IMG/VR virus record: IMGVR_UViG_3300042894_001036 | Span: 1 to 31,245 of that record | Source: a virus | Direction: 5' to 3' (one strand) | DNA length: 31,245 nt | In this document: positions 1 to 28,742 of the stretch, one piece after another | Layout of the letters: the number at the start of each line of letters is the position of its first letter | Position numbering within the stretch: the first letter of the stretch is position 1 | Program-made: the position numbers and the translations under genes | Notes under the pieces: model-generated | The model's input: the letters and a program-made list of their open reading frames with translations, nothing else | Databases searched by the model: none | Told to the model about the DNA's origin: nothing

Positions 1-96
1 TACGACATAGCACAGGAGAGATTACAAGTATCCAAAGAAGACCTTAAAAAGTTATTGAAGGAAAAGATTAGTAATGGGCAGCAAGAGTTATTCTAA
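1..96 (+). CDS. C-terminal end of DNA methyltransferase (partial)
   Basis: Frame 1 is open from the first base and reads YDIAQERLQ followed by a lysine-rich helix ending in QQELF and TAA at 94-96. An aromatic-x-IAxxRL segment is the usual last conserved piece of beta-class N6-adenine/N4-cytosine methyltransferases, a few residues after the SAM-binding motif and the IGIE-type strand. The methyltransferase that runs off the right end of the window stops just before this segment would be expected, so I infer these are two ends of one gene. The last 23 nt overlap the first cassette gene in another frame. The fragment alone is too short to prove identity. Confidence 0.75.
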   Translation, partial: YDIAQERLQVSKEDLKKLLKEKISNGQQELF

Positions 97-457
97 AGGT
101 ATTAGTTGGATAGATGATTGTAGGATTCCGTTTGTGGATGAGGGGGATAAGAGTATTGGGATTATAACAAAACAAAAACAAAATATATTTGGAAATGGAG
201 ATGGATTTATCAGAGGTGAATATCAACTAAACACTCAAGGTCGTTTCCCCGCTAATCTATTGGTAAGTGATGATATGTTGAATGACGGGGTTATTAGTAA
301 ATCAAATGATAATATTAGAAACAACAGAATAGAACAAAAAATATATGGTGGAGGAAAAGGAATACCACCACAATCAACAAATGGTTTCAACGACAAAGGA
401 ACGAATAGTCGTTATTACGACATAGATAAATGGTTTGATAATTTGATAGATGTATAG
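74..457 (+). CDS. TRD-like cassette 1 of five (methyltransferase recognition-segment paralogue)
   Basis: This 127-residue protein begins inside the methyltransferase tail. It has three conserved blocks: YSKGISWIDDCRIPF near residues 6-20, GRFPANLLVSDDMLNDG near 56-72, and GTNSRYYDIDKWF near 109-121. Two unrelated variable stretches lie between them. I recall this block order as an internal segment of phage beta-class DNA methyltransferases, between motif VIII and motif X where the target recognition domain lies. No SAM or catalytic motif is present, so it cannot methylate alone. The N-terminus MGSKS differs from the other cassettes, and Tyr6-Ser7 use different codons (TAT TCT). It could be a trans-acting specificity peptide or a recombination donor; the function is inferred. 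Confidence 0.7.
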   Translation: MGSKSYSKGISWIDDCRIPFVDEGDKSIGIITKQKQNIFGNGDGFIRGEYQLNTQGRFPANLLVSDDMLNDGVISKSNDNIRNNRIEQKIYGGGKGIPPQSTNGFNDKGTNSRYYDIDKWFDNLIDV

Positions 458-824
458 CAAGGGTATTAGTTGGATAGATGATTGTAGGATTCCTCATAAT
501 GAAGAAATCATGGTGGCAATAGATTATCAAGAAACCAAACAAAGTGATAATGGTTGGGGTACAAAAAATAGAATACTTGAACCATCCAATAGAGGTCGTT
601 TCCCCGCTAATCTATTAGTATCAGATGATATGTTGAATGATGGTGTTATTAGTAAGAGTGTGAGTGGAGGTAAAGGAAAGGCTTTACCCAACTCTGATGG
701 AAAAAATGACGGTATTAGAATGAGGCCTGAAACTGTAAAAGAAAGAGGTGGTTTCAACGACAAAGGAACAAATAGTCGTTATTACGACATAGATAAATGG
801 TTTGATAAAATAATAGATGTATAG
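450..824 (+). CDS. TRD-like cassette 2 of five
   Basis: The 124-residue protein starts at ATGTATAG, where its ATG overlaps the TAG stop of cassette 1 by 8 nt, suggesting termination-reinitiation. It keeps the N-terminal (GISWIDDCRIP), middle (GRFPANLLVSDDMLNDG) and C-terminal (GTNSRYYDIDKWF) blocks. Its first variable stretch is unlike the others (HNEEIMVAIDYQETKQ, later GWGTKNR) and the second is glycine- and lysine-rich. It is the only copy with His instead of Phe after CRIP and with DKIIDV instead of DNLIDV at the end. Serine in LLVSDD is TCA here but AGT in three copies, a silent difference. There are no catalytic motifs. Probable role: an alternative DNA-recognition segment. Confidence 0.7.
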   Translation: MYSKGISWIDDCRIPHNEEIMVAIDYQETKQSDNGWGTKNRILEPSNRGRFPANLLVSDDMLNDGVISKSVSGGKGKALPNSDGKNDGIRMRPETVKERGGFNDKGTNSRYYDIDKWFDKIIDV

Positions 825-1236
825 CAAGGGTATTAGTTGGATAGACGATTGTAGGATTCCGTTTGAGGATACACAAAACCCTGCTACCAATCCAAAATAT
901 AGATTACAAGGTGATTATAAGATGCCAGAAAAAGGACAGATAAGTGATGGGTCAATAACTCAATTTAGAAGTTCATTAAACGAAATAGATGTTAGGGGTC
1001 GTTTCCCCGCTAATCTATTGGTAAGTGATGATATGTTGAATGATGGTATAATTTATAGTAGTGGAAGTGGTGATGGAAAAATGGAAATGATAAACATAAA
1101 TGACGCACACCATTTCAATTTTATAGAAAAGAATAGAAAAGTTGTTAAAATGAAAGGAGTTCAATACAACGACAAAGGAACGAATAGTCGTTATTACGAC
1201 ATAGATAAATGGTTTGATAATTTGATAGATGTATAG
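817..1236 (+). CDS. TRD-like cassette 3 of five (longest)
   Basis: This is the longest copy, 139 residues, starting at the same ATGTATAG overlap. The first variable region is about 40 residues (after FEDTQNPATNPKY) and the second about 45, containing a His/Asn/Lys-rich stretch. Despite these extra lengths the frame is kept through all three conserved blocks, which argues that it encodes a selected protein. The middle block continues GIIYSSG where other copies have GVISKS. It has the same family logic as its neighbours: a detached recognition segment without SAM-binding or catalytic residues. Confidence 0.7.
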   Translation: MYSKGISWIDDCRIPFEDTQNPATNPKYRLQGDYKMPEKGQISDGSITQFRSSLNEIDVRGRFPANLLVSDDMLNDGIIYSSGSGDGKMEMININDAHHFNFIEKNRKVVKMKGVQYNDKGTNSRYYDIDKWFDNLIDV

Positions 1237-1597
1237 CAAGGGTATTAGTTGGATAGATGATTGTAGAATACCATTTGTGGATGAGGGGGATATAAAGTCA
1301 GCAACACCAGGTTCATTAAACGCAACAGGTGAGTTCAGTTCATTTGGATTTAAGAGTGGTAATGAATTAAATACCACAGGTCGTTTCCCCGCTAATCTAT
1401 TGGTGTCAGATGATATGTTGAATGATGGTAGTGTGAGTAAAAGTGGTTCTAATAGAAATAATACAAAATATTCTCCATCTAAATCTCAAGTGGTTTATTT
1501 TGGTGGAGGTAATAAGGACAGCGAACCAAAAGACAAAGGAACAAATAGTCGTTATTACGACATAGATAAATGGTTTGATAATTTGATAGATGTATAG
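1229..1597 (+). CDS. TRD-like cassette 4 of five (shortest)
   Basis: The 122-residue copy begins at the 8-nt ATGTATAG overlap. After CRIPFVDEGD, shared with cassette 1, comes a Ser/Gly/Phe-rich variable stretch. The middle block is followed by GSVSKSGSNRNN and then a stretch ending YFGGGNKDSEPK before DKGTNSRYYDIDKWF. Arg-Ile-Pro is written AGA ATA CCA here and in cassette 5, but AGG ATT CCG or CCT in cassettes 1-3, so the conserved block differs silently. No catalytic motif is seen. Its sequence between blocks is not shared with the other four. Confidence 0.7.
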   Translation: MYSKGISWIDDCRIPFVDEGDIKSATPGSLNATGEFSSFGFKSGNELNTTGRFPANLLVSDDMLNDGSVSKSGSNRNNTKYSPSKSQVVYFGGGNKDSEPKDKGTNSRYYDIDKWFDNLIDV

Positions 1598-1979
1598 CAA
1601 GGGTATTAGTTGGATAGATGATTGTAGAATACCATTTGTAGATGAGGTTGGTATTAAAATATCTGGTGATAAAAAACATCTACAAAAATGGAAAGAAAAA
1701 GATGGTCGTGAAAAAAGAAATATTGATGAGATACAAAATACACCTTACATAAACACTCAAGGCAGATTCCCCGCTAATCTATTGGTAAGTGATGATATGT
1801 TGAATGATGGTGTTATTACAAAAAGTGAAGGACGAAAGATATACGATAATGAAGATATAAACATAAATAATAATGTTTATAATGATGGATGGAAAAGACA
1901 AAAAAGTGATATTAAAGACAAAGGAACGAATAGTCGTTATTACGACATAGATAAATGGTTTGATAATTTGATAGAATAA
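1590..1979 (+). CDS. TRD-like cassette 5 of five (last)
   Basis: This 129-residue copy starts with ATGTATAG and ends DNLIE-TAA rather than DNLIDV-TAG. Its stop lies one base before the ATG of the next, unrelated gene, so the array ends exactly here. The first variable stretch is highly charged (KHLQKWKEKDGREKRN) and the second is Asn/Asp/Tyr-rich. Gly-Arg of GRFPANLL is written GGC AGA where the other copies have GGT CGT, again a silent change. It carries no methyltransferase catalytic motif. It may form a transcript with the methyltransferase upstream and the packaging genes downstream. Confidence 0.7.
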   Translation: MYSKGISWIDDCRIPFVDEVGIKISGDKKHLQKWKEKDGREKRNIDEIQNTPYINTQGRFPANLLVSDDMLNDGVITKSEGRKIYDNEDININNNVYNDGWKRQKSDIKDKGTNSRYYDIDKWFDNLIE

Positions 1980-1980
1980 T

Positions 1981-2184
1981 ATGCCAGAAAGTAAGAAACG
2001 TGGAGGCAAGAAAGCCCACAACAAAAGAGTTAAAGCGAGAAACGAAAAGATGAAAGGGAAGATTTGGGAGTTTGAGATGCTTAAACGAAAAATCTATGAG
2101 GAAGCCAAACATAGATATTTGGATGAACAAAATAAACCAACAGAATTAAAAATAAAAACAGATGACGGATATAATAATTCCTGA
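1981..2184 (+). CDS. Small basic protein upstream of terminase
   Basis: This 67-residue protein is strongly basic at the N-terminus (SKKRGGKKAHNKRVKARN) and is then probably helical, with many Glu, Lys and Tyr residues. I recall small RGGxKAHxKR proteins near terminase genes of Bacteroidota phages, but I know no established function. A nucleic-acid-binding or packaging role is a guess from charge and position. It starts one base after the stop of cassette 5 and overlaps the terminase small subunit by 23 nt, so it belongs to the same tightly packed operon. Confidence 0.7.
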   Translation: MPESKKRGGKKAHNKRVKARNEKMKGKIWEFEMLKRKIYEEAKHRYLDEQNKPTELKIKTDDGYNNS

Positions 2185-2626
2185 TGATGAATTACCCCTA
2201 ACACCAATACCTCCACGACCAGCGGGGAGACCAAAGGGTTCATACGCAAAAAGAATGACCGATGTTGAAAAAAGAACATTCATCAATAATGCGGCAAGAG
2301 AGATATTAGAAAACCACCTGTCTTATGGTGAGTTTGTAAAGTATTGTAAGGACAGCGCAAATATGTCTAAATCACAAGCAAATGAATATTGGGGTAAAGT
2401 ATGGGTATTACTGAAGAAAAAGTTTGAACTTGAAAAAGACAAACTTGTATTGAAACATACACAGAAATATTGGGACATATACGAACAAGCGTTGATGTCT
2501 AATGATTATACAAACGCAAGACAAGCATTAAATGACCTTGCTAAATTACAAGGTTTGAATGAACCTGAGAAAGTGCATATTACAGGAACCTCAATCAAAC
2601 TAAACTTTGGGGAACCGAGTGAATAA
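2162..2626 (+). CDS. terS: Terminase small subunit (probable)
   Basis: The 154-residue protein lies directly upstream of the large terminase. It has a proline-rich start (PIPPRPAGRPKGSY), a helical segment with NMSKSQANEYW that could be a DNA-binding helix-turn-helix, and a long helical half with ALMSNDYTNARQALNDLAKL. The latter resembles the oligomerisation helices of small terminases, which recognise the packaging site and regulate the large subunit. The C-terminal tail is short and acidic. Identification rests on length, position and helix pattern; small terminases diverge quickly, so sequence alone is only moderately convincing. Confidence 0.75.
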   Translation: MTDIIIPDDELPLTPIPPRPAGRPKGSYAKRMTDVEKRTFINNAAREILENHLSYGEFVKYCKDSANMSKSQANEYWGKVWVLLKKKFELEKDKLVLKHTQKYWDIYEQALMSNDYTNARQALNDLAKLQGLNEPEKVHITGTSIKLNFGEPSE

Positions 2627-2639
2627 ATAATATATTGTA

Positions 2640-3878
2640 ATGATTAAACAACTGACAGTTCAAGGTTTCACCCCTACCATTAAACAGAAGGAGATTATTG
2701 ATGCTTGTTTATCAAAGAACATCAAATACATAGTCGGTTGTTTTGGGAGACAATCAGGGAAATCATTTACTGCTATGAACCTACTATTGAAATGGGCTTT
2801 AGAAGATAATGGTTCAGTATCTATGTGGGTCTCACCAGTTTATTCACAAGCAAAAAAAGTATTCACAGAACTAACCAATACAATCGCAGGAACAGGACTT
2901 ACAAAATCTGTCAATAAGTCAGAACTAACCATCACCTTCATCAACGGGTCTGTGATGTATTTTAGGAGTGGTGAGAGAGAAGATACTTTGAGAGGTTATA
3001 CTTTGACCTATCTTGTTATTGATGAAGCGGCATACATCAAAGATAATGTTTGGATGGAAGTATTAAGACCGACAGTATTGGTTCAAGGTAAAAAGGTATT
3101 ATTCATATCTACACCAAAAGGAAAGAACTGGTTTCATCAAGTAGCATTACGAGGTATGAGTGATGAATACCCGACCTACAAAACATTCTTCGCTACATCA
3201 TTTGATACACCATTTATCACACACGAAGAATTGGAAGAAGCGAAATTATCTTTACCAGAAACAATCTATAAACAAGAGATACTAGCAGAGTTCATAGATG
3301 ATGGTGGGGAAGTATTCGGTTCATTAAAAAATAGTTGTGTATTGAATGATTACCCTGCCTATGACCCTTCCAAAAAGTATTATGCTGGTTTGGACTTTGG
3401 TCGTCAGAATGACTATACAGTTCTGACCATATTAAATGGGGATGGTGAGATGGTTGATTTTTATAGAGAAAGACAGAAGAGTTGGGACATCATCATTAGT
3501 GAAGTTGTTAATAAGTTGAAGAAATGGAGACCAGTATGTTTTGCTGAAGTTAATAGTATTGGAGATGTTCTTTATGAACAAATCAAAAAACAATACCCTT
3601 CAGTTCAACCATTCATAACCAGTAATGATAGTAAGCAAAACCTGATTGAAGATTTGATTATGGGTATGAATGAGACCAAAATTAAACTCCCCTCACCAGA
3701 CCTCAATACAGACCTTTACAAAGAACTTTCTGTTTTTACATATGAATACTCACCTAAGTCAAGAAAAGTCAAATACGGGTCTCCTAATGGGTTCCACGAC
3801 GACACAGTAATATCACTTGCATTATCATATCATTCCTACAAGAAAAAAGCAACTTATGGAACCTATGTTATTAGATAA
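2640..3878 (+). CDS. terL: Terminase large subunit, ATPase-nuclease
   Basis: This 412-residue protein is the packaging motor. The Walker A-like motif GRQSGKS is at residues 36-42, Walker B LVIDEA at 125-130, and the coupling motif LFISTPKGKNW follows near 153. The C-terminal RNase H-like nuclease begins with YAGLDFGRQNDYT, its first metal-binding Asp near 252. It ends with FHDDTVISLAL, with Asp387-Asp388 as the last acidic pair. Length fits a compact terminase. It translocates DNA into the prohead through the portal and cuts concatemers. The start follows an AT-rich 13-nt spacer after the small subunit, with no Shine-Dalgarno sequence. Confidence 0.96.
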   Translation: MIKQLTVQGFTPTIKQKEIIDACLSKNIKYIVGCFGRQSGKSFTAMNLLLKWALEDNGSVSMWVSPVYSQAKKVFTELTNTIAGTGLTKSVNKSELTITFINGSVMYFRSGEREDTLRGYTLTYLVIDEAAYIKDNVWMEVLRPTVLVQGKKVLFISTPKGKNWFHQVALRGMSDEYPTYKTFFATSFDTPFITHEELEEAKLSLPETIYKQEILAEFIDDGGEVFGSLKNSCVLNDYPAYDPSKKYYAGLDFGRQNDYTVLTILNGDGEMVDFYRERQKSWDIIISEVVNKLKKWRPVCFAEVNSIGDVLYEQIKKQYPSVQPFITSNDSKQNLIEDLIMGMNETKIKLPSPDLNTDLYKELSVFTYEYSPKSRKVKYGSPNGFHDDTVISLALSYHSYKKKATYGTYVIR

Positions 3879-3913
3879 GTTATGAATAAAAAAAACAATA
3901 AAGATATTTTTAT

Positions 3914-4606
3914 ATGATGAAGTTTAACTACCAAAACAAACAATACCAGATTGATGAACCCACCGTTGAAATGTGGTCTAAACTTACTTTATTACAGGAA
4001 TGGACTGATGAGCGTGAGTTCTGTGTAAAGTTATTATCATTCACCACAGGATTAACAGAAGAAGAAATTGAGAATAGTGATTACTTAGAAGTATTGAAAG
4101 TATCAAATGAGATTTCAGCATTCCTAAATGAGAGTGGGGATAAGTTCTATAATGAGTTTGACTTTAACAACAAAAAATACAGATTTTTAGATTTACCAAA
4201 TCTAACCTTTGGTGAGTTTATAGATATTGATACATACCTATCAAAAGAAGAACACGAAAAGAAAAGAGAGATGCCACTATTGATGGCTATGTTATACAGA
4301 GAAGTAGATGAGAAAGGAAACTACAAACCGTATAACTCAAAGGAATTACAACTTAAAGCAGAGGAGTTTAAGAAACTCCCCGTCCGTTATGTTCGTGGTT
4401 CTACCAATTTTTTTTTTCATTTAGACAAAACCTTGCAAGGCAATTTTCGGGGCTCTTTCGGGCTCCAGTTGAAGTTGATGGCAAAGATGATTTGGATACT
4501 CGTGAAGTTTATTCCTTTGATAAGTTTTGGGGTTGGTTCGCTACTCTTGTATCCTTGGCGAACGAAGATATTACAAAAATTGAAGAAATTACTAAATATC
4601 CGTTAG
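3914..4606 (+). CDS. Tail assembly chaperone-like protein, unshifted frame
   Basis: The frame is open for 230 codons, but it looks native only up to the T run at 4408-4417 (about residue 168). That part is acidic and helical, with NYQNKQYQIDEPTVEMWSKL at the start and FDFNNKKYRFLDLPNLTFGE near 85-105. After the T run the frame turns into a hydrophobic, then lysine-rich tail that resembles no domain I know. The -1 frame continues with a more protein-like segment. I infer a tail assembly chaperone made in short and frameshifted forms, as in many siphophages. It lies about 10 kb from the tape measure gene, which is unusual for this family. Confidence 0.6.
   Translation: MMKFNYQNKQYQIDEPTVEMWSKLTLLQEWTDEREFCVKLLSFTTGLTEEEIENSDYLEVLKVSNEISAFLNESGDKFYNEFDFNNKKYRFLDLPNLTFGEFIDIDTYLSKEEHEKKREMPLLMAMLYREVDEKGNYKPYNSKELQLKAEEFKKLPVRYVRGSTNFFFHLDKTLQGNFRGSFGLQLKLMAKMIWILVKFIPLISFGVGSLLLYPWRTKILQKLKKLLNIR
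4408..4417 (+). promoter_or_regulatory. Ten-T slippery run, candidate -1 frameshift site
   Basis: Ten consecutive T residues read AAT TTT TTT TTT CAT in the upstream frame. Moving back one base anywhere in the run keeps Phe codons paired and enters the frame that carries the GWF segment. Transcriptional slippage would act in the same place. It is also the kind of homopolymer where sequencing errors occur. Confidence 0.55.
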
Positions 4607-4701
4607 TGTTTGTTCTCAACTATTTATCATACACGAAGGATATAAACGACATCAGGAGACGAGAGGCTCAGAAGATACAACAACAAATGAAACAAAGATA
4701 A
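4417..4701 (+). CDS. Frameshift extension of the tail chaperone (-1 frame)
   Basis: This frame is open from about 4372 and has no ATG before the conserved part, so it probably needs a -1 slip from the upstream gene. It reads VEVDGKDDLDTREVYSFDKF, then GWFATLVSLANEDITKIEEI and a segment ending in a Gln/Lys-rich tail. The GWF...NEDI...EEITKYP...LNYLSY pattern resembles C-terminal parts of Bacteroidota phage tail chaperones as I recall them. A slip in the T run would give a protein of about 262 residues. The alternative is a homopolymer length error that splits one ordinary gene. A TTG start at 4492 is possible but less likely. Confidence 0.6.
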   Translation, partial: SFRQNLARQFSGLFRAPVEVDGKDDLDTREVYSFDKFWGWFATLVSLANEDITKIEEITKYPLVFVLNYLSYTKDINDIRRREAQKIQQQMKQR

Positions 4702-4702
4702 T

Positions 4703-5251
4703 ATGGCAAACGCAGTCGGCTACTATAACTTTAAGAAGATAATGGATTTGCTAAGACAATTAGCAGATTATCATGAACAAATACAATCATGGGGATTTGG
4801 TGATGTGGAACAACTTATTTACAATACGGAAATGAGATTGAAGCAAGATAATGTCCAAAGTAATCAAGCCCCATTCTATCCTGCTATGTGGGTTATTCCT
4901 AATGGAGCAAAAACAGATGGTAGGGAAACTACCTATGATTTTAGCATCTTGATTATGGATATACAGAATACCAAAAACTTTGATAATGAATTGGATACAT
5001 ATAGTGATACACTAGACATTCTCAAAGATGTTATAGCCCAATTAAAATACGCAACAGGAATGGAATGTTATTGTAATCTTGATATTGACTATCCAATAGA
5101 TATGACCCCATTTGGTGAGGCATACGACGACTATGTAAATGGATGGACTGGTAATATTAAGTTGAGAGTTCCTGATGCAATAAACAGATGTATCGCACCT
5201 TATGCGGCATTCCCTCCTTGTGATAATAATAGTGATGGATCAAGCGAGTAA
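4703..5251 (+). CDS. Virion connector or tail-terminator-like protein
   Basis: The 182-residue protein begins one base after the chaperone extension stops. The N-terminal half is helical (FKKIMDLLRQLADYHEQIQSW). It is followed by a beta-rich region with YPAMWVIPNGAKTDGRETTYDFSI and DTLDILKDVIAQL, ending in a Ser/Asp tail. The pattern of a helix, strands and a conserved MWVIP segment next to a connector gene is typical of tail-completion or terminator proteins of this phage group. I cannot tell which ring it forms. Confidence 0.55.
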   Translation: MANAVGYYNFKKIMDLLRQLADYHEQIQSWGFGDVEQLIYNTEMRLKQDNVQSNQAPFYPAMWVIPNGAKTDGRETTYDFSILIMDIQNTKNFDNELDTYSDTLDILKDVIAQLKYATGMECYCNLDIDYPIDMTPFGEAYDDYVNGWTGNIKLRVPDAINRCIAPYAAFPPCDNNSDGSSE

Positions 5252-5810
5252 GTATCAATATTATTCATTTCAACAAATACCACGACCTAACTATAATGAG
5301 GCGATGGAGGAACTTGCTGCCATGTTTGAAAAATCACTCAAGGCAAACTTAGCAAAACCCTATCCATACGCACCAGGTTTCTTCGGTCAAAAATCTGCTT
5401 CGGGAATAAGGAATATGAAACAAAAAACTGGTTCATTATACAACTCTATAAATGTATCCTTTGACGAAGGCACCAATAAGATGAAGATAAACATGCTGAA
5501 CTATTGGAAGTATGTAAATGACGGAAGACAACCAGGTCAATATGTTCCTTTGAAACCTCTTATGGCTTGGATGAGAACTAAGGGGATGAATAGAGACCCA
5601 AGAGGTAGGTTCAAGAAGTTCAATATTAAAGGTGCAGCATTTGCAATATCAAAATCTATAAAGGAGTTTGGTATTCAACCAACCAATTTCTATGATGATA
5701 GTTTTGATACTTTGATTGACGCATTCAACAATCCTAATGGGCCTGCGGCACAACTTGGTATTGACCTTCAAAAGTTCCTAACCAGTATAATTCAAGAACC
5801 AATCAAATAA
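5235..5810 (+). CDS. Neck or tail-completion protein (HK97 gp10-like)
   Basis: I choose the ATG at 5235 (191 residues, MDQASKYQYYS). The upstream ATG at 5202 adds a hydrophobic stretch that lies wholly over the previous gene. Features are KTGSLYNSINVSFDEG, NYWKYVNDGRQPGQYVP and a C-terminal helical region. The pattern 'S-L-x-N-S-I ... Y-W-x-Y-V-N-D-G-R-Q-P-G' matches the gp10-like minor virion proteins that join the tail to the connector. It overlaps the previous gene by 17 nt and is one base from the next. The family call is by motif recall and position. Confidence 0.6.
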   Translation: MDQASKYQYYSFQQIPRPNYNEAMEELAAMFEKSLKANLAKPYPYAPGFFGQKSASGIRNMKQKTGSLYNSINVSFDEGTNKMKINMLNYWKYVNDGRQPGQYVPLKPLMAWMRTKGMNRDPRGRFKKFNIKGAAFAISKSIKEFGIQPTNFYDDSFDTLIDAFNNPNGPAAQLGIDLQKFLTSIIQEPIK

Positions 5811-5811
5811 T

Positions 5812-7419
5812 ATGAGCGTTATAATAAATGTAGAACAATCACCACTAACTATTACCCCCAGTAATGGTGAGCACATCTATACACTTTCCTCCACAGGATA
5901 TACCTTACAAAACTTTAAGTTTGTAATAGACATATATTTTAGACCTGATAGTATAAACTTTTCAGGAACACCACAACCAACCGCAAGATTAAAGGTTCGT
6001 CCAAACTCTCATGGTAGAGCGATTGTTGAGTTGGAAGAAATTGTAAGAACATTCCTCAAAGCCAATCCACGTTTTTCAGGAACAACATATCCATACTTGA
6101 ACTATGTTGCTGACGAAAACTCTATATTGACTATGAGTGATGCTACACAGACAAGAACATTAAATGCGTTTAATATCTATGGGGGTAATAACTTGAGTGA
6201 TACTGTCCCTGTTTTATGGCACGCAGAACAATACCAAATAAAAGTTGGTTGTGAGTATGAAGACCCAAGCATATCTGCTATTGTTATAGATATGGATTTG
6301 TTGGCATCTTACCAACCACCAGCAGTCAATATATTTCCTGGTGTGGATAATAAACTTATTCCATCACCTTATTTATCAGGGGCTACACTAGGATCTGGTT
6401 ATATACAATCCCCTAACTTTTTCCAAGTAGATAATCAGTCATGGTATTATTATGATTTGTTTAGACACATCTATCAACCAGGTGATGATACAACTTGTGG
6501 GCCTCGTGAGTTATTAAATGCCGCAGGTAGAGAATACAAGACAATATCCCAAGATGGTTATGTATCACAAAGAGTTCGTAGAAGACAACATCACCCTGAT
6601 TGTCCTATAATCATTTCATTCCTTGATGGACAGAATGATTACTTCAACAATCAAACTACAAGAGTGGTAGTTCGTGGGGCTGACTTTCAAGGGGAGAATT
6701 ATACCTATTCAGCATATACTGCAAACAATTCTACATTAGTTAATAACTATGATATTTGGAAACAGGCGGTATTCTATATGCCGTGGAACATTACACAAAC
6801 AGGAACAAATGTAATCCCACAAGACGCACAGAAATTATGTTTCTATCTAACATCAGGTAGTGATATGAACTTCTCAGCAAGAACGAGTGAAATACTTGAG
6901 TTCTATATGGAAGACCCTGATTGTATAAATAATCCAATACATCTTTTGTTCCTTAATGGAAGGGGTATGTGGGACACTTATACATTTGGTAAGAAATCCA
7001 CTAAGACCTTTGAGGTTGATAGAAAACAATACAGACAAGAGAGTTCATTAGACAAATCTTGGTATTCAAGAGGAGCATACCAAAGAGGTACAACCATTTA
7101 CGACCAAGATGCAAGTTATACTATTGAATGTATGTCTAACTTTATGACTGATGAAGATACAGTTGTAGTGGAGGAATTATTCAACTCACCAGAGGTATAT
7201 GTTATTGAAGGGACAACAGAAATGATTGACCCTTGTGCTCAACCAGATATAGAGGATTGCCAGTCCTGTCTTGGTGAAATAAGACAATATCAATATCTTC
7301 TACCAGTTGTGATAAATAATAAAGAACTCAAGAAGTTCCAAAAACAATATCAAAAAATATTTCAATACACTTTTGATTTGAAATATGCTAATGTCAAACG
7401 TTATAGAACACAAGGATAA
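5812..7419 (+). CDS. Large virion protein, probably tail tip or baseplate
   Basis: The 535-residue protein is mostly beta-rich. It starts with MSVIINVEQSPLTITPSNGE, then has repeated aromatic, Asn and Thr stretches. An acidic, cysteine-containing segment lies near residues 480-495 (PCAQPDIEDCQSCLGE). I recognise similar proteins only as uncharacterised structural proteins of Bacteroidota phages. It lies between the connector genes and another very large tail protein, two bases after the former and three bases before the latter, so they are likely one transcription unit. No enzymatic motif or signal peptide is visible. Confidence 0.55.
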   Translation: MSVIINVEQSPLTITPSNGEHIYTLSSTGYTLQNFKFVIDIYFRPDSINFSGTPQPTARLKVRPNSHGRAIVELEEIVRTFLKANPRFSGTTYPYLNYVADENSILTMSDATQTRTLNAFNIYGGNNLSDTVPVLWHAEQYQIKVGCEYEDPSISAIVIDMDLLASYQPPAVNIFPGVDNKLIPSPYLSGATLGSGYIQSPNFFQVDNQSWYYYDLFRHIYQPGDDTTCGPRELLNAAGREYKTISQDGYVSQRVRRRQHHPDCPIIISFLDGQNDYFNNQTTRVVVRGADFQGENYTYSAYTANNSTLVNNYDIWKQAVFYMPWNITQTGTNVIPQDAQKLCFYLTSGSDMNFSARTSEILEFYMEDPDCINNPIHLLFLNGRGMWDTYTFGKKSTKTFEVDRKQYRQESSLDKSWYSRGAYQRGTTIYDQDASYTIECMSNFMTDEDTVVVEELFNSPEVYVIEGTTEMIDPCAQPDIEDCQSCLGEIRQYQYLLPVVINNKELKKFQKQYQKIFQYTFDLKYANVKRYRTQG

Positions 7420-7422
7420 AAT

Positions 7423-10400
7423 ATGGGATTACAAATTAGAACTTATGTGGAAGGAAACCAAGAGTTTATTGAACTTTATGGTAATGAAGAAATTGATATG
7501 GAGGTTTCCTTCGCTGAGATACAAGACATTACCAAAAAGAATAGTGCTTTCACAAAAGAGTTCAAAGTTCCTGGTTCAAAAAACAATAACTACATATTCA
7601 ACTACTTCTTTGATATAAACCAAGTATTCACAGATTGGAACCCCAAACAAAAGTTTGAGGCTGACCTAATATATGATGGTTATGAAATCTATAATGGATA
7701 TGTTAGGTTGAATAGTGTGTCTATAAACAAAATTGAAAAGGTATATTCTATCACCTTCTATTCTGCTGTGGGAGACCTTGTGGCAAACATAGGAGACAAA
7801 GCCTTATGTAATGTTGATACAACACCATTAAATCATTCTCTATATGACTTGGATGTAGCACAGAGTTTATTTTTTGATACATCATTACATAACCCATATT
7901 CATACAATCTTGCTAATCCAACCAATCCTACAACTATTACCCCAATCAACACAGGTGATGTCCAATATATTTTAGGACAGAGGGGGTATGATTATACTGG
8001 TTCAACCTTTAGAGATATTAGAGACATAAATGTTGCTAATACACCTCTATTGGATTTTTCAGGAATTACAGGATTTTTTGACTTTTCAGGAACCCCGCTC
8101 ATATCTTCGTATCTCATTCCTTCTGTTAGGACAAGAACATTATATGAACTTATAGTTAATCAGGCTGGTTATTATTTAGAGAGTGAGTTTTTTGATACTG
8201 ATTACTTTGGTAGATATTACATACCTTTGTCGTTCAATACTGAACAACCTTATATGGCACAAGCAGTCCCATACAAATATGAATGGGTAAATCTATCGGG
8301 TGAAACAAACTCGTATGTGCGTCAAGTTGAAAACATTTCAACATCGGTCGTCAGTACTGTAAATTGGTTCAAAACAAAAGACATAGTTGAGGAGAACCTC
8401 GGCTTTAATCCTCTTGAATATAGCGAGTATTCTGGGACAACATTATCTCAGAATGAGTTAGAAAACTATATGTTTGCTTTACCATTAAGCAACGGGCTTC
8501 CTTTTTCTTACAAGGCTAGTATTTCAATACGAAATACAGGGCCAGGCACTCCATTTGCCTACGGTAAATTACAATTATGGAAATATAGACAGAATACATC
8601 ACCATTATTGGCTGAACTAGTCCAAAGTAGTGATTATTTCAGTTCAAATCCATTTACAGGCATAACTGAAACATTTGATATTACGGGAACAACAACATCA
8701 GCAGGTTCAATTTATGGAACGGATTTATATTTTTTATCATATACAAAAAACGCATTACCATTTGAGGTAGTTGGTGCCTCATTTGAAATAACCAGTTCTC
8801 CTGTTGTTCTCCCCTTCACAATAGAGTTGAACAAGGAAATGGCTTGCGACCAGAAACAAATTGACTTTATCCAAAACATCAATAGGACATTTAATCTTGT
8901 TGTTGTAGAACATCCAGTCAAACCAAAAACACTCATAGTAGAACCTATGATTGATTATATTGGTAAAGGTGAAACTTTAGATTGGACTGAAAAAGTCAAT
9001 TTTGATGCAACACAAAATCTTTATCCAACAACCAACTTAATTAACGGAACAATATTTGCCGCAAATAAAGCCGACAAAGATTACATCAATACAGAATATA
9101 CAAAGAGGTCAAATAAGATATTCGGTCAAAACACTATTGACCTCAATATAGATTATAAAAACAAAACAACAGACCTAACACAAACATTAGGTCAGAATAC
9201 TGATTATTATTTGAATGCGACTGGTGATACTAACATCGCTTTACCTTGTTATTTCATCACCAAAGAAGACAACAATAATGGTATATCCACCTTTGAGTAT
9301 AGACCATTCCGTTCAATACCAAGACAAACATTTAAGTCGGTTTCAATACCAACAGGAAATACTCTAACTCGTCCGTTCTTCTATAGATATGCGGGGACAA
9401 ACAATCCATTTACAGTTATTGGATTAACAAGTATGGGGACATTCCTAAACTATAATAGATTGACGACATATCCATTTGCTATAAAGGATTTTTCACATTA
9501 TACCATTTATGATAGTAGTAATACTTTCACAGAAGATGAAATTATTTATCCAACATTAGAAAACCAATATGACAGATATTATAGAGATTATATTGAAGAT
9601 TTGACTAGTGATGAGAATAAGATTTATCAAGTTCAAATGTATCTAACGCCTTGGGAGGTTGCAAACTTATATTATAATGAAACTATTATTATCAAAAACG
9701 CAAAGTTCCGTATCAATAAGATTTCAGGATTATCATTATTAAGACCTGGTTTATGTAATGTTGAGTTGGTTAAACTTACAAGAGATTATACCCCAAGTCC
9801 TATTTTATTTTATGATTTAATTTCTTGTGATGACCCTTGTGATGTAATCCATACACACACAGACATATTGTATCCAATATGGGCTTTTGAAGATCAGTAT
9901 GTGGATATTTACAAAGGGCCTTTATCATCAGCCCCATTCAAGTTAGTTGAAAGATATAGAGTTATTAGAACCGAATATAATGAGGCATATACATATGAAG
10001 TACCTTACTTTGATATTTACAGAACTCAAACATCAAGTTATTACACTTTTTGGGATTATGCTGTGTATAACTCTTGTTCTGCGACAACACCATCATTTAA
10101 GTTAGAACCATTCAAAAATGAAACCATATCAGCCTTCACAGGTAATTGTGTTTCTATGACTATTACAAATAACGACATTATACCTCAAACATTTACCTTT
10201 AAGTATTGTGATGGAGTTGATGGTAGTTGGACGCTTGCTCCTTCAAGTGCCATAACTCTTTGTGGTTTATATGAAAGTTTCAATACAACAGGATTAACTT
10301 ATTGTTTGTCGGCGTTTTCTGCTTGTACCAGTTGGACACCATTACCGACACCAACCCCAAGCAATACACCAAACTTATCACCAAGTCCAACAAGAACTCC

Positions 10401-10677
10401 TACAGCGACACCTACGCCAACTGCGACACTAAATCAACCTACACCAACACCGAGTGCTACTCCGTCAGTATTATGTAGAATAAACACGACTTTGAATATA
10501 ACAAGTCCAGGTTGGGTTAGATATAATTTATGTAATGGAACTTTGACTTGGGAATATTTTGGTTCAACAGGAAGTAATACAATAACCACTTGTATTCAAC
10601 AAGGAAGCGTTGAGCCTGGTTTCCCTTACGCTGATTTGGCGGTATTTACAATAATAACATCAGGAACACCTTGTTAA
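7423..10677 (+). CDS. Very large tail protein with Pro/Thr-rich linker and terminal module
   Basis: This 1084-residue protein starts MGLQIRTYVEGNQEFIELYG and then EIDMEVSFAEIQDITKKNSA, a beginning I recall from structural proteins of related phages. About 950 residues of beta-rich sequence follow. Near residue 970 comes a linker with TPTPSNTPNLSPSPTRTPTA and related repeats, then a small cysteine-containing terminal module ending in TSGTPC. A body, linker and small terminal domain suggests a tail-tip or fibre protein presenting an exposed head. I see no hydrolase motif. The minus-strand frame inside (8712-8936) is a shadow. Confidence 0.6.
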   Translation: MGLQIRTYVEGNQEFIELYGNEEIDMEVSFAEIQDITKKNSAFTKEFKVPGSKNNNYIFNYFFDINQVFTDWNPKQKFEADLIYDGYEIYNGYVRLNSVSINKIEKVYSITFYSAVGDLVANIGDKALCNVDTTPLNHSLYDLDVAQSLFFDTSLHNPYSYNLANPTNPTTITPINTGDVQYILGQRGYDYTGSTFRDIRDINVANTPLLDFSGITGFFDFSGTPLISSYLIPSVRTRTLYELIVNQAGYYLESEFFDTDYFGRYYIPLSFNTEQPYMAQAVPYKYEWVNLSGETNSYVRQVENISTSVVSTVNWFKTKDIVEENLGFNPLEYSEYSGTTLSQNELENYMFALPLSNGLPFSYKASISIRNTGPGTPFAYGKLQLWKYRQNTSPLLAELVQSSDYFSSNPFTGITETFDITGTTTSAGSIYGTDLYFLSYTKNALPFEVVGASFEITSSPVVLPFTIELNKEMACDQKQIDFIQNINRTFNLVVVEHPVKPKTLIVEPMIDYIGKGETLDWTEKVNFDATQNLYPTTNLINGTIFAANKADKDYINTEYTKRSNKIFGQNTIDLNIDYKNKTTDLTQTLGQNTDYYLNATGDTNIALPCYFITKEDNNNGISTFEYRPFRSIPRQTFKSVSIPTGNTLTRPFFYRYAGTNNPFTVIGLTSMGTFLNYNRLTTYPFAIKDFSHYTIYDSSNTFTEDEIIYPTLENQYDRYYRDYIEDLTSDENKIYQVQMYLTPWEVANLYYNETIIIKNAKFRINKISGLSLLRPGLCNVELVKLTRDYTPSPILFYDLISCDDPCDVIHTHTDILYPIWAFEDQYVDIYKGPLSSAPFKLVERYRVIRTEYNEAYTYEVPYFDIYRTQTSSYYTFWDYAVYNSCSATTPSFKLEPFKNETISAFTGNCVSMTITNNDIIPQTFTFKYCDGVDGSWTLAPSSAITLCGLYESFNTTGLTYCLSAFSACTSWTPLPTPTPSNTPNLSPSPTRTPTATPTPTATLNQPTPTPSATPSVLCRINTTLNITSPGWVRYNLCNGTLTWEYFGSTGSNTITTCIQQGSVEPGFPYADLAVFTIITSGTPC

Positions 10678-10691
10678 AAAATATTTAAGAT

Positions 10692-11243
10692 ATGGCATTT
10701 AGATACACTCCCACACCAACTCCAAGTGTTAGTCCAACAATAAGTTTAACTCCGTCTATAACACCGAGTTTCACTCCAACAAGTACTTCGTGTCCTGGAA
10801 CTTCTCCTACGCCAACAAATACCGCAACAAATACACCAAGTCAAACACAAACTATTCAACCAACACAAAGCAATACTCCAACCAATACAGCAACACCTAC
10901 CATTACTCCAACACAAACGAACACTCCAACACCTTCACCATGTACTTTGATAATATACTTTGATGTATCACAATCACCTGGCACACAAGGATGGGATACT
11001 TCTGGTGATGCTTGTAATGGAACTGGAACACCATTAACAGTATATTTCACCAATTCTGGTGGTTGTCCTGATACATTCCAAGATGTATTTGATGATGGTA
11101 AAGTAATTTATACAAATGTCGGTTTGACTACTGTTCTTGCTGGTAATAGCAAATATTATAAGAGTGTTTCAGCGCCTAATTCAGGTATTGCTATACAAGT
11201 AGATAATAGTGGATTTATTCAAACATTAAGTGCTCCTTGTTAA
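10692..11243 (+). CDS. Pro/Thr-rich stalk with DACNG surface module
   Basis: The first roughly 80 of 183 residues are a low-complexity Pro/Thr/Ser/Asn stalk. The rest is a compact module with GWDTSGDACNG near residue 100, then VYF, TFQDVFDDGKVIY, KYYKSVSAPNSG and a final Cys. The same module recurs in the next gene ([11 protein letters not shown]...FQEA...KWFKSVGG). It looks like an exposed virion appendage; a receptor-contact role is inferred. There is a 14-nt gap from the previous gene and a 44-nt AT-rich gap to the next. It may be a decoration protein instead of a fibre. Confidence 0.6.
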   Translation: MAFRYTPTPTPSVSPTISLTPSITPSFTPTSTSCPGTSPTPTNTATNTPSQTQTIQPTQSNTPTNTATPTITPTQTNTPTPSPCTLIIYFDVSQSPGTQGWDTSGDACNGTGTPLTVYFTNSGGCPDTFQDVFDDGKVIYTNVGLTTVLAGNSKYYKSVSAPNSGIAIQVDNSGFIQTLSAPC

Positions 11244-11287
11244 TTTTGTGATACAACCAAAATAAAGAAAAATTATATTTATTGTAA

Positions 11288-14200
11288 ATGACTATTAGTA
11301 GATTAAGGGTTTCCCCCACTCCAAGTAATACAGCAACAATTACACCGTCAATTTCGCCGACCACTACCCAATGCCCTACCTTTACGGCTACTCCAACACA
11401 GACGGAAACTCCTACAAATACGCCAACATTTACTCCTACTAATACAATTACTCCAACAAATACAGAGACACCTACAGAAACTCCTACACAAACTCAAACT
11501 GAGACGCCTACTAACACACCTACAAATACAGAGACGCCTACAAATACGCCTACAAATACAAATACGCCTACAAATACAGAGACGCCTACTCAAACTGCGA
11601 CACAAACATTAACACCAACCAATACTGCTACACCTACGCAGACAGAGACACCTACGCAAACTGCAACACAAACATTAACACCAACCAATACTGCTACACC
11701 AACTCAGACAGAAACTCCTACTCAAACTGCGACACAAACATTAACACCAACCAATACTTTTACGCCTACTCCAACTAAGACAGATACAAGTAATTATTAT
11801 TTAGTAGATGTTTTAGATTGTGATTGTAATATAGTAGAAACTGATAAAGTTATTCTTGCCACTTTCTTTTTAACTACTGGACGTTATTATACGGCTCCAC
11901 AATACCCTAATAATAAGTTCTATATTAAACAAAAAATAACTGCCACTTCAGTTGATTATTTCTTTAATATATTTGGGATTTATAATTTCAATACTGATTG
12001 TGATTTGGTTCCAGGATGCCCTACAAGAACACCTACACCTACACCAACATTAACTCCAACAAACACTTCAACACCAACCAATACTTCAACACCAACCAAT
12101 ACAGAAACACCTACGCAAACACAGACACAAACACCTTCACAAACGGCGACTAACACTCCTACCCAAACACCAACCAATACACAAACACCGACCAATACAC
12201 AAACACCGACCAATACACAAACACCGACAAATACAGGAACTCCTACTAACACTCCATCTACAAGTCCAGTATCTGCTAATGTTTGTTTCTCAGGTCAAGG
12301 ATTTAATGCTCAAGTAGGTGCAATATCCAAAGTATCAGGTGGTAATAAATTGTATATTGGTGGAGCATTCACTAACTATCCATCAGGTACAACCTTGAAT
12401 AGAATGGTTAGAGTAAATGAGGATGGAACCCCTGACACATCTTTCAATATTGGAACTGGATTTAATAATACTATCAATTCTATTCAAGAAGAAACATCAA
12501 CAGGAAAAGTTTATGTTGGAGGTAATTTTACAACTTATACAGGTACAACAATTAACAGGTTCTTAAGGTTGAACTCTGATGGTTCAAGAGATACGACATT
12601 TAATGTTGGAACAGGATTTGCTGGAGGAGCGGTTTATGATAGTAAGATACAATCCGATGGAAAAATATTAGTATTTGGATATTTCACTTCTTATACAGGT
12701 GCTACTAATAATGGTATAATAAGGTTAAACTCTGATGGTTCGCAAGATACAACATTTAGTGCTGGTACAGGTTTCTCACCAGCGAACTCTCAAGTTAGTC
12801 ATGGTATAATTGACGCAAGTGGTAAGATACTTTGTGTGGGTCAATTCACAGGATATAATGGAACTTCGGTTGGTAGAATTGTTAGATTAAATACTAATGG
12901 TTCTATTGATAATACATTTAGTGCTGGTACAGGATTTAACAACTTTACTTATGGAGGTATTCATGAATTATCAAATGGTCAATATATGGTATTCGGTGAT
13001 TTCACAAACTATAATGGTATTAGTAGAACTAGAGCCGCAAGATTGAATAATAACGGAACTTTGGATACTGGATACACACCGTCAAGTATCAATAACTTTA
13101 TATTTGGTTCTGCAATTGACGCACAAAATAGAGCATATATCATAGGTGGTTTCACAACATTATCTGGAGTTTCAACAATCGGTATAGGAAGATTAACAAG
13201 TGGTGGTACTTATGACAATACTTATGCGACTGGTGTAGGATTTAATAATACACAAAGTAGTTTCATTCCGAGAGTGATGATAGAAAATAGTGGTTCAATT
13301 CTATGGGGTGGTACATTCACAAGTTATTCAGGACAGACAGGTATAAATAGAATATTGAGAACTGATACAAATGGTAATTCATTAAGATGTAGTTTAGATC
13401 CAAGTGTTTCACCAACACCTACACCATCACCGACATCAACACCAACCAATACAATTACACCAACCAATACAATTACACCGACAAATACACAGACACCGAC
13501 AAATACAATTACACCAACCAATACACAGACACCGACAAATACTTCTACAAACACACAAACACCAACAAATACAATTACACCAACCAATACACAGACACCA
13601 ACCAATACATCAACACCAACCAATACAATTACACCAACCAATACACAGACACCGACAAATACATCAACACCAACCACAACTGGTACGAACACACCTACTC
13701 CTTCACAAACTAACTTCTCATCATTAGTTCTATGTGTTGATACAGGTGGAATTGGATGGAATAGTGATACGGATGCTTGTAATGGTTTCTGTAATACCCA
13801 AACAGTATATGTTCCTCAGGCTGGTATAACTTCATTCCAAGAAGCAGCAATAACTTATGGATTACCAATTTATTCAAGTACAACATTCATAACTGCTAAT
13901 AAGTTTAATGGAAATGATAAATGGTTCAAGTCAGTCGGTGGAGATGAAGTATTCCAAGTTGGAACTGATGGTGCTATGTCAGTATTTAGTTCTTGTCCAA
14001 CTTTAACACCAACCGCAACATCAACACCGACGCAAACACCAACGGTAAGTTTGTCTTCAACTCCATCATCAACACCGAATAATACACCGACTAATACACC
14101 AACGAATACAAGAACTCAGACACCTACCCCAAGTATTACACCACAACCAACAATTTATACGCATGGTGCGGTATTAGGAACTTGTAGCGATTATTGTACT

Positions 14201-14422
14201 ACAAATTACAACATAACCACTCTGACTAACGCAGATGCGAGTTATGCGGCACTTACAATCGGTGATACAATTTACGGACAAGGTGGGGTTGCTGGATTTG
14301 TAGCATATTCAGACCAATCAACAGATACAACCACAGGCCCATTCCGTATCGCTGAAATAGATACAAATGGAGAAGTAATATCAATCTTGATTTGTGTTGG
14401 AGGAAGTTGCGACCCATTATAA
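11288..14422 (+). CDS. Multidomain fibre-like protein: Pro/Thr linkers, seven-blade propeller, DACNG module
   Basis: The 1044-residue order is: Pro/Thr/Asn linker (about 5-170), small module A ([16 protein letters not shown], about 172-240), linker, seven repeats of about 50 residues (about 335-700), linker, DACNG module (about 815-905), linker, terminal module C. The repeats carry RLNSDGSxDTTFxxGTGF-like signatures, matching the delta-60 beta-propeller family (DUF5122) as I know it. Linkers use TPTNTx, TPTQTx and similar units. The whole looks like domains on stalks for surface attachment. The start follows TATATTTATTGTAAATG, and minus-strand frames over the linkers are shadows. Low-complexity DNA may be assembled imperfectly. 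Confidence 0.7.
11582..11779 (+). repeat. 66-bp tandem repeat, three copies, in linker
   Basis: Three units begin at 11582, 11648 and 11714, coding for the 22-residue period [20 protein letters not shown] plus TE. The copies differ mostly at silent positions (CCT/CCA, GCG/GCA, ACG/ACA). The last copy ends TFTPTP. The length is a multiple of three, so copy-number change would lengthen the stalk without a frameshift. Confidence 0.85.
12167..12238 (+). repeat. 18-bp tandem repeat, four copies, in linker
   Basis: Units of ACACCGACCAATACACAA (first copy ACACCA, last copy diverging as ACACCGACAAATACAGGA) code for TPTNTQ. They lie just upstream of the propeller domain of the fibre-like protein and are in frame. 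Confidence 0.8.
13425..13680 (+). repeat. Degenerate 18-bp repeats in linker after the propeller
   Basis: Units such as ACACCAACCAATACAATT and ACACCGACAAATACACAG alternate, coding for [12 protein letters not shown] and TPTNTS. The mixture of CCA/CCG and AAC/ACA variants makes short-read assembly of exact copy number uncertain. Confidence 0.75.
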
Positions 14423-21557: not shown

Positions 21558-22679
21558 ATGAGTAATAGAATAGACAAAAGATTATGGGGAGTATTAGGGA
21601 AACAACAAACCTTTTATTCTCCACAAAAACAAGTTGAAGGGAAGTCAAAAACTCCCTTAAATGTTAATGCTTTTGATAGTTGGGATGTCAAAAGGTCAAG
21701 GTTCAAAAGAGTTGATGGATATGAGAATGCTATTCAACAAGGTGGGACAGTTATAGGACAAACAACTCCAAGTCCTAATGTTTCACCAACACCGACGCCT
21801 AGCATTACTCCGAGTTCAACTTTGACACCAACACCAACCAATACGACTACACCAACAACTACACCAACAATAACACCAACTCCAAGTTCCACTCCACCAG
21901 CAAGTGGAACAACTGAGGCAAATGCTTATTTGACTGCCGTTGTTGATGCTGGTGGTACTGGTATTACTTCAACCGTATCCGCTGCAACTATTACATTATT
22001 TACTTCTTTGGTAAGTAATGGATTGTATGAGAAGATGGAAGCATTCTATCCGATGCTAGGGGGTAATAGTGATGGTTGTAAGTTTAATGGTAAAAACCCT
22101 GTTAATACGGATGCCGCATATAGATTGACCTTCTTTGGTGGTTGGACTTTCAACCCATCTGGTGCGACATCAAACGGAACAACCGCTTATGCTGATACAT
22201 TCTTGGCTCCATCGGCATTAACCTTGAATAGTCAGCATTATAGTATTTATATGGGGAATAATAATGTTCCTGTTGGTGGCACAAATTATTTCGGTTGCGC
22301 TGAAGTTGTCGGAGGATCACAATTATATAATGTTATAGCACAAGATGGAGGGCCTAGATGGTTCTATGGTGTTAGTTCTACTGGTGTAGGTACAACAACA
22401 ACACCTGATACACAAGGGTTTATATTGATGGCTTCAAGTGGTTCAAGTGATGAAACCTTATATCGTAATGCTACAATTATAGATACTACTAGCGTAAGTA
22501 GAGGTACGATGACGAGAAGTAATTATATTGCGGCTATGAATAATGGTACTCCAATACAACATTACGACAACGAATATAGATTTGTGAGTATTGGTTCAGG
22601 ATTAACCGCATCGGAAGTATCCACATTATCAACAATTATAAACACATTCCAAACAACATTAGGACGAAATACATATTAA
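21558..22679 (+). CDS. Pro/Thr-rich fibre-like protein with lectin-like body
   Basis: The 373-residue protein has an N-terminal anchor (about 1-65, MSNRIDKRLWGVLGKQQTFY), a Pro/Thr linker at about 70-115, and a globular body. The body includes LYEKMEAFYPMLGGNSDGCK, NSQHYSIYMGNNN and YRFVSIGSGLTASEVSTLST. I recall this layout from phage tail fibre bodies with a concanavalin/LamG-like fold, but this is not proven by residues I can see. It starts just after the terminator, so it may have its own promoter. A host-contact role is inferred. Confidence 0.6.
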   Translation: MSNRIDKRLWGVLGKQQTFYSPQKQVEGKSKTPLNVNAFDSWDVKRSRFKRVDGYENAIQQGGTVIGQTTPSPNVSPTPTPSITPSSTLTPTPTNTTTPTTTPTITPTPSSTPPASGTTEANAYLTAVVDAGGTGITSTVSAATITLFTSLVSNGLYEKMEAFYPMLGGNSDGCKFNGKNPVNTDAAYRLTFFGGWTFNPSGATSNGTTAYADTFLAPSALTLNSQHYSIYMGNNNVPVGGTNYFGCAEVVGGSQLYNVIAQDGGPRWFYGVSSTGVGTTTTPDTQGFILMASSGSSDETLYRNATIIDTTSVSRGTMTRSNYIAAMNNGTPIQHYDNEYRFVSIGSGLTASEVSTLSTIINTFQTTLGRNTY

Positions 22680-22680
22680 A

Positions 22681-22935
22681 ATGGAACAATTTGTAGCAAT
22701 ACTCACAATACATCAAAAAGATAGTTTAGTAGGACAATTAGTATGTTCTGATGTATATTTCAATCCAACACTAGACGCAAATCAGGATTGGTTTATTTCA
22801 AGTCAGGAAATAGATAATTCAATTTACCCAGAGCATGAATGGGTTAAGGATTTGACATTATCAGTTTATGTTGGGCCTTACATTCCACCCGCTCCAACAC
22901 CAATACCATCAGGTTCAACAATAAATGAAATATAA
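22681..22935 (+). CDS. Small protein linked to the fibre gene
   Basis: This 84-residue protein starts one base after the fibre gene ends. It has a short hydrophobic start (FVAILTIHQKDSLVGQLVCS), the acidic sequence NPTLDANQDWFISSQEID and a proline-rich tail (YIPPAPTPIPSGS). That tail is a very short version of the linkers seen elsewhere in the window. It has no recognised family. By position it may be an accessory or chaperone of the fibre. Confidence 0.6.
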   Translation: MEQFVAILTIHQKDSLVGQLVCSDVYFNPTLDANQDWFISSQEIDNSIYPEHEWVKDLTLSVYVGPYIPPAPTPIPSGSTINEI

Positions 22936-22943
22936 TTTTTTTT

Positions 22944-23027
22944 ATGAATATTTTATTTGTTTTGATAGATGATAAACTTGACGCACATTACATAATAAGC
23001 GAGAATGTTGATAATACGAAAAAATGA
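22944..23027 (+). CDS. Possible micro-gene of 27 residues
   Basis: ATG after a T-rich stretch opens a short frame, MNILFVLIDDKLDAHYIISE plus seven residues, ending TGA. It fills the gap between two genes with a plausible acidic composition. There is no family or conservation evidence, and chance cannot be excluded. Confidence 0.3.
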   Translation: MNILFVLIDDKLDAHYIISENVDNTKK

Positions 23028-23037
23028 GGTAAATAAT

Positions 23038-23520
23038 ATGATTGCTACGGTGTCTATGAATAAGACATTACCAAATCCATATTATCTATTCTCATTCCAA
23101 CATATAGCATCAAAGGAGAGAATAAGTTTCTATCCTCAAGTCATAACCAGTAATGTTCGTTATGATAAGTTTAGATTTGTGGAGGCACCGACAACTGTTC
23201 TTACTGGTACAACACCACAAGTCAATTTTGAATATTTGGGTCAGTATTACTATTCTATATATGAGAATATTACATCAGGTTCAACTAATATCGCTTTAGC
23301 CTACAATAAGTTAGAGAGTGGTAGAGCGTGGGTTATTGTCGGTAATGATAATACCCAAGATTGTTTCTTTGAACCTTATATTTCTAATGATGAGGACTTC
23401 GCACAGATAATCTATGTGAGTGAAGAAGAACAAGAGTGTCAGCAACCAATAGTAAGTCCAACACCGACGACAACCAATACTTCTACTCCAACACCCACAC
23501 CAACACCAACATCAACCTAA
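23038..23520 (+). CDS. Structural protein with Pro/Thr tail
   Basis: I choose ATG 23038 (160 residues, MIATVSMNKTLPNPYYLFSF). The start at 23005 would overlap the micro-frame and adds an unrelated polar stretch. The body includes SKERISFYPQVITSNVRYDK and GQYYYSIYENITSGSTNIAL, a beta-rich pattern I recall from virion proteins of this phage group. The last 20 residues are TPTPTPTPTST-like. The Pro/Thr tail has no domain after it, unlike the other linker proteins, so it may be truncated or serve as a flexible end. Confidence 0.6.
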   Translation: MIATVSMNKTLPNPYYLFSFQHIASKERISFYPQVITSNVRYDKFRFVEAPTTVLTGTTPQVNFEYLGQYYYSIYENITSGSTNIALAYNKLESGRAWVIVGNDNTQDCFFEPYISNDEDFAQIIYVSEEEQECQQPIVSPTPTTTNTSTPTPTPTPTST

Positions 23521-28717: not shown

Positions 28718-28742
28718 TAAACTTGATAAACAAGAAATACAA

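Follow-up and report, generated by a model that had tools for sequence, protein, structure and literature searches.

In beta-class DNA methyltransferases, the target recognition region is located between motifs VIII and X, and the catalytic subunit of Type I systems, HsdM, is of the gamma class (N6_Mtase). Fused beta-class enzymes (phrog_67/PF01555) are encoded by Bacillus phage BSP18 (AYJ75797) and Pontimonas phage phiPsal1 (AUV61455), and two further examples, L153 from IMG/VR and L154 from an Omnitrophota MAG, are used in the present work. Type I systems include switching loci with multiple hsdS genes (PMC7394358), and hsdM and hsdS are overlapping, translationally coupled genes (PMC3510504). 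Naturally split C5 methyltransferases are known as well, namely M.AquI and M.EcoHK31I (PMC3404938), and the multispecific C5 methyltransferases of Bacillus phages carry several target-recognising domains per protein (PMC12707154, citing Trautner 1996). Here we describe a phage locus in which a methyltransferase core is accompanied by an array of small ORFs. In our reading, to which we assign a probability of roughly 0.8, these ORFs encode trans-acting, combinatorially shuffled specificity subunits for the one core; assembly in trans and the target motifs are inferred, and there is no biochemistry behind them. A prior description of such a split-core and cassette-array layout was not found in the open-access literature searched, which is not proof of novelty; a sequence-only reading of the same DNA had stated that no phage system of this layout was known to have been described.

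The window, i.e. the whole stretch of 31,245 nucleotides that was analysed (IMG/VR virus record IMGVR_UViG_3300042894_001036), carries five intact overlapping ORFs of 122-139 aa each on the plus strand between positions 74 and 1979, hereafter called cassettes (Table 1). The sequence-only reading had noted three shared blocks and two unrelated variable stretches in each of the five frames, and this was borne out by alignment: the blocks YSKGISWIDDCRIP, GRFPANLLVSDDMLNDG and DKGTNSRYYDIDKWFD are conserved in all five cassettes, the invariant columns are concentrated there, and a non-alignable variable stretch (insert) lies between each pair of neighbouring blocks. At the DNA level, repeats of 129 and 74 nt are each present five times in the window, far beyond chance. 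The ATG of cassette 1 overlaps the methyltransferase stop codon by 23 nt, and successive cassettes overlap via ATGTATAG, the start of cassette 2 overlapping the stop of cassette 1. Two contigs from other samples, L003 and L016, are 100% identical to positions 354-6594 and 1378-6976 of the window, respectively, and the layout recurs in many contigs; hence the array is no assembly artefact; had it been one, the earlier reading would have been refuted.

No significant family match was obtained for any cassette in Pfam, PHROG, NCBIfam or PADLOC. Comparison of the cassettes with PDB sequences gave no match, the profile hmmsearch yielding chance matches only, and a tblastn search of GenBank phages with one cassette was equally without a match, so the standalone form is either absent from, or too divergent in, the GenBank phage records searched. 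The terminase large subunit gene downstream of the array shows that the window belongs to a tailed phage; its terminase relatives are only ~30% identical, and a placement of the phage was not obtained from them. Long repeats of the TPTPTNT type are present in proteins of the structural region (7423-14422 and 21558-23520).

Table 1. Positions in the window of the cassette array, the methyltransferase core and the neighbouring terminase genes.
Feature	Position	Strand	Remarks
Beta-class N6/N4 DNA methyltransferase core without recognition segment	30321-31245, off window end	+	PF01555 E 5.8e-22; phrog_67 E 4.7e-47
DPPY (motif IV) of core	30408-30419	+	aa 30
Split junction SYVDKVLNFEALPDNVKMTYPLIQTPKPAKKEK of core	around 30876-30980	+	
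HPTVKP (motif X) of core	31110-31127	+	aa 264
DPFGGSGTTG (motif I) of core	31185-31214	+	aa 289
Core C-terminus, YDIAQERLQVSKEDLKKLLKEKISNGQQELF	1-96	+	31 codons and stop; intact homologue L004
Cassette 1	74-457	+	127 aa; insert families a8/b14; detached recognition segment, by homology
Cassette 2	450-824	+	124 aa; insert families a10/b17
Cassette 3	817-1236	+	139 aa; insert families a2/b10
Cassette 4	1229-1597	+	122 aa; insert families a4/b6
Cassette 5	1590-1979	+	129 aa; insert families a3/b5
Small basic ORF	1981-2184	+	between array and terminase genes
Putative small terminase subunit (terS)	2162-2626	+	assigned from its place ahead of TerL; no match in Pfam above the cut-off
Terminase large subunit (terL)	2640-3878	+	PF03237 E 3e-17

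The methyltransferase core satisfies the test for a beta-class N6/N4 enzyme (PF01555), in that DPPY stands N-terminal to motif X and to the FxGxG SAM motif. It fails the criterion of a recognition region located between motifs VIII and X of the same polypeptide, this segment being encoded separately. In the intact homologue L004, whose protein is 97% identical over the core, the two pieces found at the window ends sit 26 nt apart. Since both ends of the window fall inside this one gene, the window is almost certainly an effectively circular genome missing ~26 nt; IMG/VR lists the record as linear. The earlier placement of the array beside a DNA methyltransferase therefore holds for the C-terminus of the enzyme and has to be refined for the body of the core, which lies at the opposite window end. 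Upstream of the core, an ORF for a homing-type endonuclease (NUMOD4-HNH) was found at 28605-29264, which could aid local recombination.

In IMG/VR contigs, 46 distinct split cores and ~117 full cassette ORFs were found, with 1-5 cassettes per locus. A cassette-only profile built from 25 standalone cassettes matched the fused enzymes L153 (E 3.7e-30), L154 (E 2.5e-24) and the BSP18 methylase (L081; E 5.5e-9), and in all three methyltransferase sequence flanks an internal cassette-like segment on both sides. Further fused enzymes came from the extended set (L156, twice, L157, L169 and L176), and when species genomes of bacteria and archaea were scanned, L154, located on a contig of an Omnitrophota MAG, was the sole locus obtained. 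Using hhalign, the whole cassette was aligned with residues 165-306 of L154 at 99.6% probability. Against the divergent fused enzyme of phiPsal1 (P0003) only the GRxPAN block was aligned (20.8%), so that distant fused enzymes need the closer intermediates L153 and L154. When 15 split cores were aligned with the fused enzymes, residues ~165-309 of L154 were missing from them, bar a few stray aligned residues, and the ends of the cassettes coincide with the ends of this excised piece. In the alignment with the fused enzymes, the three blocks (IDDCRI, GRFPAN and SRYFD) fall after the MKP region and before HPTVKP, as required of the recognition segment of phrog_67-type methyltransferases. Given the motif positions in L154 (DPPY at 30, HPTVKP at 333 and DPFGGSGTTG at 358), the excised piece occupies the position of the recognition region in beta-class enzymes, and the check set by the sequence-only reading, whether the cassettes match the part of a methyltransferase from motif VIII to motif X, comes out positive. 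Across the 46 distinct cores, what bridges the gap is in essence one and the same short linker, SYIDKVLNFEALPDNIKMTYP, which makes a near-invariant junction. Homology and position identify the cassettes as the detached recognition segment of this enzyme family; contact with DNA and specificity are inferred.

To describe the variable stretches, 107 distinct cassettes, three fused examples included, were sorted into insert families by single linkage at 60% identity and 70% coverage. This gave 63 families of insert 1 and 50 of insert 2, which occur in 102 combinations. At least two partners were found for 20 of the 21 multi-member insert-1 families and for all 21 multi-member insert-2 families, and both inserts were in common in only 6 of 311 related pairs; family a2 of cassette 3, for example, is paired elsewhere with three other insert-2 families. 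Mixing of strains in assemblies could be behind some of the shuffled combinations, but hardly behind all 102. Exchanges are also visible between individual loci: L009 and L013 are ~100% identical over ~3.2 kb except for ~150 nt that make up insert 1 of one cassette, and whole cassettes are replaced between L014 and L017 and between L041 and L044, the DNA to either side, or as far as the next cassette, being near-identical. The pattern of change in such swaps is whole-insert replacement, not point hypervariation, whereas a diversity-generating retroelement is defined by a reverse transcriptase and a template/variable repeat with adenine-specific changes. In the window, positions 997-1275 in the region of cassette 3 are 92% identical to L002 over a background of 77-84%, and block 1 with insert 1 of cassette 5 (1599-1823) shares 93% identity with both L009 and L001, the surrounding genomes being ~72-82% identical (~73% in the case of L009). 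Some insert families recur within fused enzymes (best E 2.7e-7), and each of the two halves of an L010 cassette is similar to BSP18 (E 6e-4 and 8.5e-4). These comparisons lend strong support to recombination between cassettes and between half-cassettes. The suggestion that the array is a set of alternative recognition segments is, given the homology described above, well supported at the sequence level.

The frames vary with the core. Cores of the MKPF type pair with GRFP(A/S)N/YDID cassettes and those of the MKPH type with GRF(T/S)PN/YDLD cassettes; the one exception concerns block 3 only, and the type of block 2 never crosses the core clade. This covariation of frame and core may in part reflect shared ancestry. 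Inserts are found across this division, 10 of 21 insert-1 families and 14 of 21 insert-2 families being present in both frame types. Judging from pN/pS, which is 0.14-0.20 for the frame and 0.27-0.29 for the inserts, frames and inserts are both under purifying selection.

Structure prediction was uninformative for the cassettes and shows neither docking nor a fold that would read DNA. In AlphaFold2 models of the fused L154 enzyme and of a cassette-stop-core read-through chain of L008, the cassette was mostly predicted with pLDDT <50; Gly and Asn abound in the inserts, which on their own could be disordered. The catalytic fold of the fused enzyme matches DNA-bound CcrM (Z 24.8), M.BceJIV, MboIIA and RsrI (VIA-align; catalytic part only). 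Inserts of such composition, which are not predicted to fold, leave room for the explanation that the cassettes do dock on the core but set a trait other than specificity, as clamps, activity regulators or decoys evading a host inhibitor, and hypervariability is also compatible with evasion of a host factor. We nevertheless consider this improbable: the cassettes sit where beta-class enzymes have their recognition domain, a fixed frame with two independently assorting inserts is the signature of recognition modules such as Type I HsdS, and multiple different cassettes are retained per genome.

In the viral contigs scanned, standalone cassettes share the strand of the core and follow it or, in some cases, precede it; the starts of the mapped cassettes overlap the upstream stop by 1-23 nt. 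In some genomes cassettes are placed away from the core, as after terL in L012 or as the distant third cassette of L005. Standalone cassettes and a fused enzyme were never found together in any examined locus. The sequence-only reading had offered action in trans and recombination into the enzyme as two ways of using the segments; the former is the better fit, in view of the lack of co-occurrence with a fused enzyme and of the start/stop overlaps, whereas the latter was never seen. A silent donor store, that is, idle or unexpressed templates recombining into the methyltransferase gene in a shufflon-like or gene-conversion-like manner, would agree with the conserved blocks around variable inserts, with the recombination of inserts between cassettes and with the occurrence elsewhere of fused enzymes containing the same segment. 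It seems very unlikely to us, however, as no cassette is inserted in any core adjoining standalone cassettes, the closed junction is kept in 46 of 46 distinct cores, and the mapped cassettes are intact, overlapping ORFs under purifying selection. That the cassettes act in trans, as specificity subunits, is an inference: the core is closed, the cassettes are separate and coupled genes, standalone cassettes and fused enzymes exclude each other, and in some genomes cassettes are located elsewhere.

Several loci depart from the common layout. Contig 3300047550_004232 (G001; L010/L012) carries four cassettes beside terS/terL, and a methyltransferase core was not found on its 32 kb; the place expected for the core is taken by an ORF that matches NUMOD3 weakly. 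Different versions of terS-terL at the two ends of the contig suggest that two strains have been joined in it. Methyltransferases of the small-molecule type (Methyltransf_24, FkbM) are inserted between terS and terL at L010:4406-5005 and L012:467-1105, and the one in L010 adjoins the cassettes. At L158:2111-4484 the enzyme is divided in another way, a DPPY N-half (2956-3642) lying between two alternative ORFs, each with a recognition region and motifs X/I, which suggests a second, differently placed split of the same enzyme. In the cores L009, L013, L018, L028 and L032, an insertion of ~100 aa follows the motif IV half and precedes the MKP region; that of L018 appears helix-turn-helix-like by eye and has a weak match to HTH_31 (E 0.008, below the Pfam cut-off). 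Pieces of an enzyme outside the enzyme, and one contig with cassettes but without a core, might be taken as signs of decay, with the array as the remains of methyltransferase genes that were duplicated and broken, yet this can practically be dismissed, because the cassettes are open, have the same start and end residues, overlap their neighbours uniformly and show pN/pS well below 1, and the identical array is present in three samples.

A hypothesis on how the specificity subunits operate may be put forward. The core is a single protein made of a DPPY half and a motif X/I half, from which the recognition segment has been excised and in which a short conserved linker bridges the gap. In the cassettes, the three conserved blocks may serve as a docking frame and the two variable inserts as DNA-reading elements. 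Cassettes would be translated by stop-start coupling in the same operon as the core, and each of them would dock on the core in trans, providing one specificity per cassette, although the formation of such a complex is inferred. With five cassettes, a single phage could have several motifs methylated, the motifs themselves being an inference. Recombination at the conserved blocks between co-circulating phages would then swap whole cassettes or single inserts and change the specificity combinatorially. The putative use is shielding of phage DNA from host restriction through multi-specific methylation; this anti-restriction role is inferred from phage methyltransferases in general, just as the N6-adenine target is inferred from DPPY. 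Comparison of sequences demonstrates the homology with an internal segment, the exact excision, the mutual exclusion with fused enzymes, the gene overlaps, the shuffling and swaps, and the purifying selection. The more complete picture is in our opinion quite likely: an operon of small recognition proteins, with two independently exchangeable half-recognition inserts in each, would serve one core in trans, and a phage population would thereby have a combinatorial set of methylation specificities that switches rapidly.

If this is true, the locus represents a natural programmable methyltransferase with a constant core and plug-in readers of ~125 aa, each having two swappable halves, and phages would track host restriction by trading recognition parts rather than whole enzymes. 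Natural swaps of the L009/L013 type could then reveal which insert reads which part of a motif, and the cassettes would make a ready kit for directing DNA methylation. In addition, small phage ORFs of a family left without annotation by all the libraries used acquire a likely role.

Among the systems described, the multispecific C5 enzymes of Bacillus phages are similar in purpose, as a single phage core works with multiple recognition modules to counter several restriction systems; in the present locus, however, the modules are separate genes, shuffled by halves, and the core is of the N6/N4 type. M.AquI is likewise a methyltransferase of two polypeptides and is split in the variable/recognition region. 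M.AquI and M.EcoHK31I, on the other hand, are C5-cytosine enzymes with a single fixed partner whose small subunit contains catalytic motifs, whereas the small subunit of the phage consists of the recognition segment only and comes in alternatives; the criterion for a split C5 enzyme failed, the core having DPPY and PF01555 and no match to a C5 family. The likeness to Type I HsdM/HsdS extends further: a catalytic subunit is combined with a separate specificity subunit that has two variable parts in a conserved frame, the genes overlap and are coupled, and the variable parts are exchanged by recombination. Nevertheless, the criteria for HsdS and HsdM failed too, since no cassette has a Methylase_S or Pfam match and the cassettes, at ~125 aa, are far shorter than HsdS with its two recognition domains kept apart by conserved helices, while the core belongs to PF01555, outside the HsdM family. 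Unlike Type I systems, the locus has a beta-class PF01555 core with DPPY before the SAM motif, no restriction subunit was seen, and the arrays are phage-borne. With the fused phrog_67 enzymes the locus has in common the catalytic motifs and their order, as well as the three-block segment that in those enzymes is flanked by the MKP region and HPTVKP. The fused enzymes are single polypeptides containing one segment, while the phage encodes it apart from a closed core, as a gene of its own that is present in as many as five variants.
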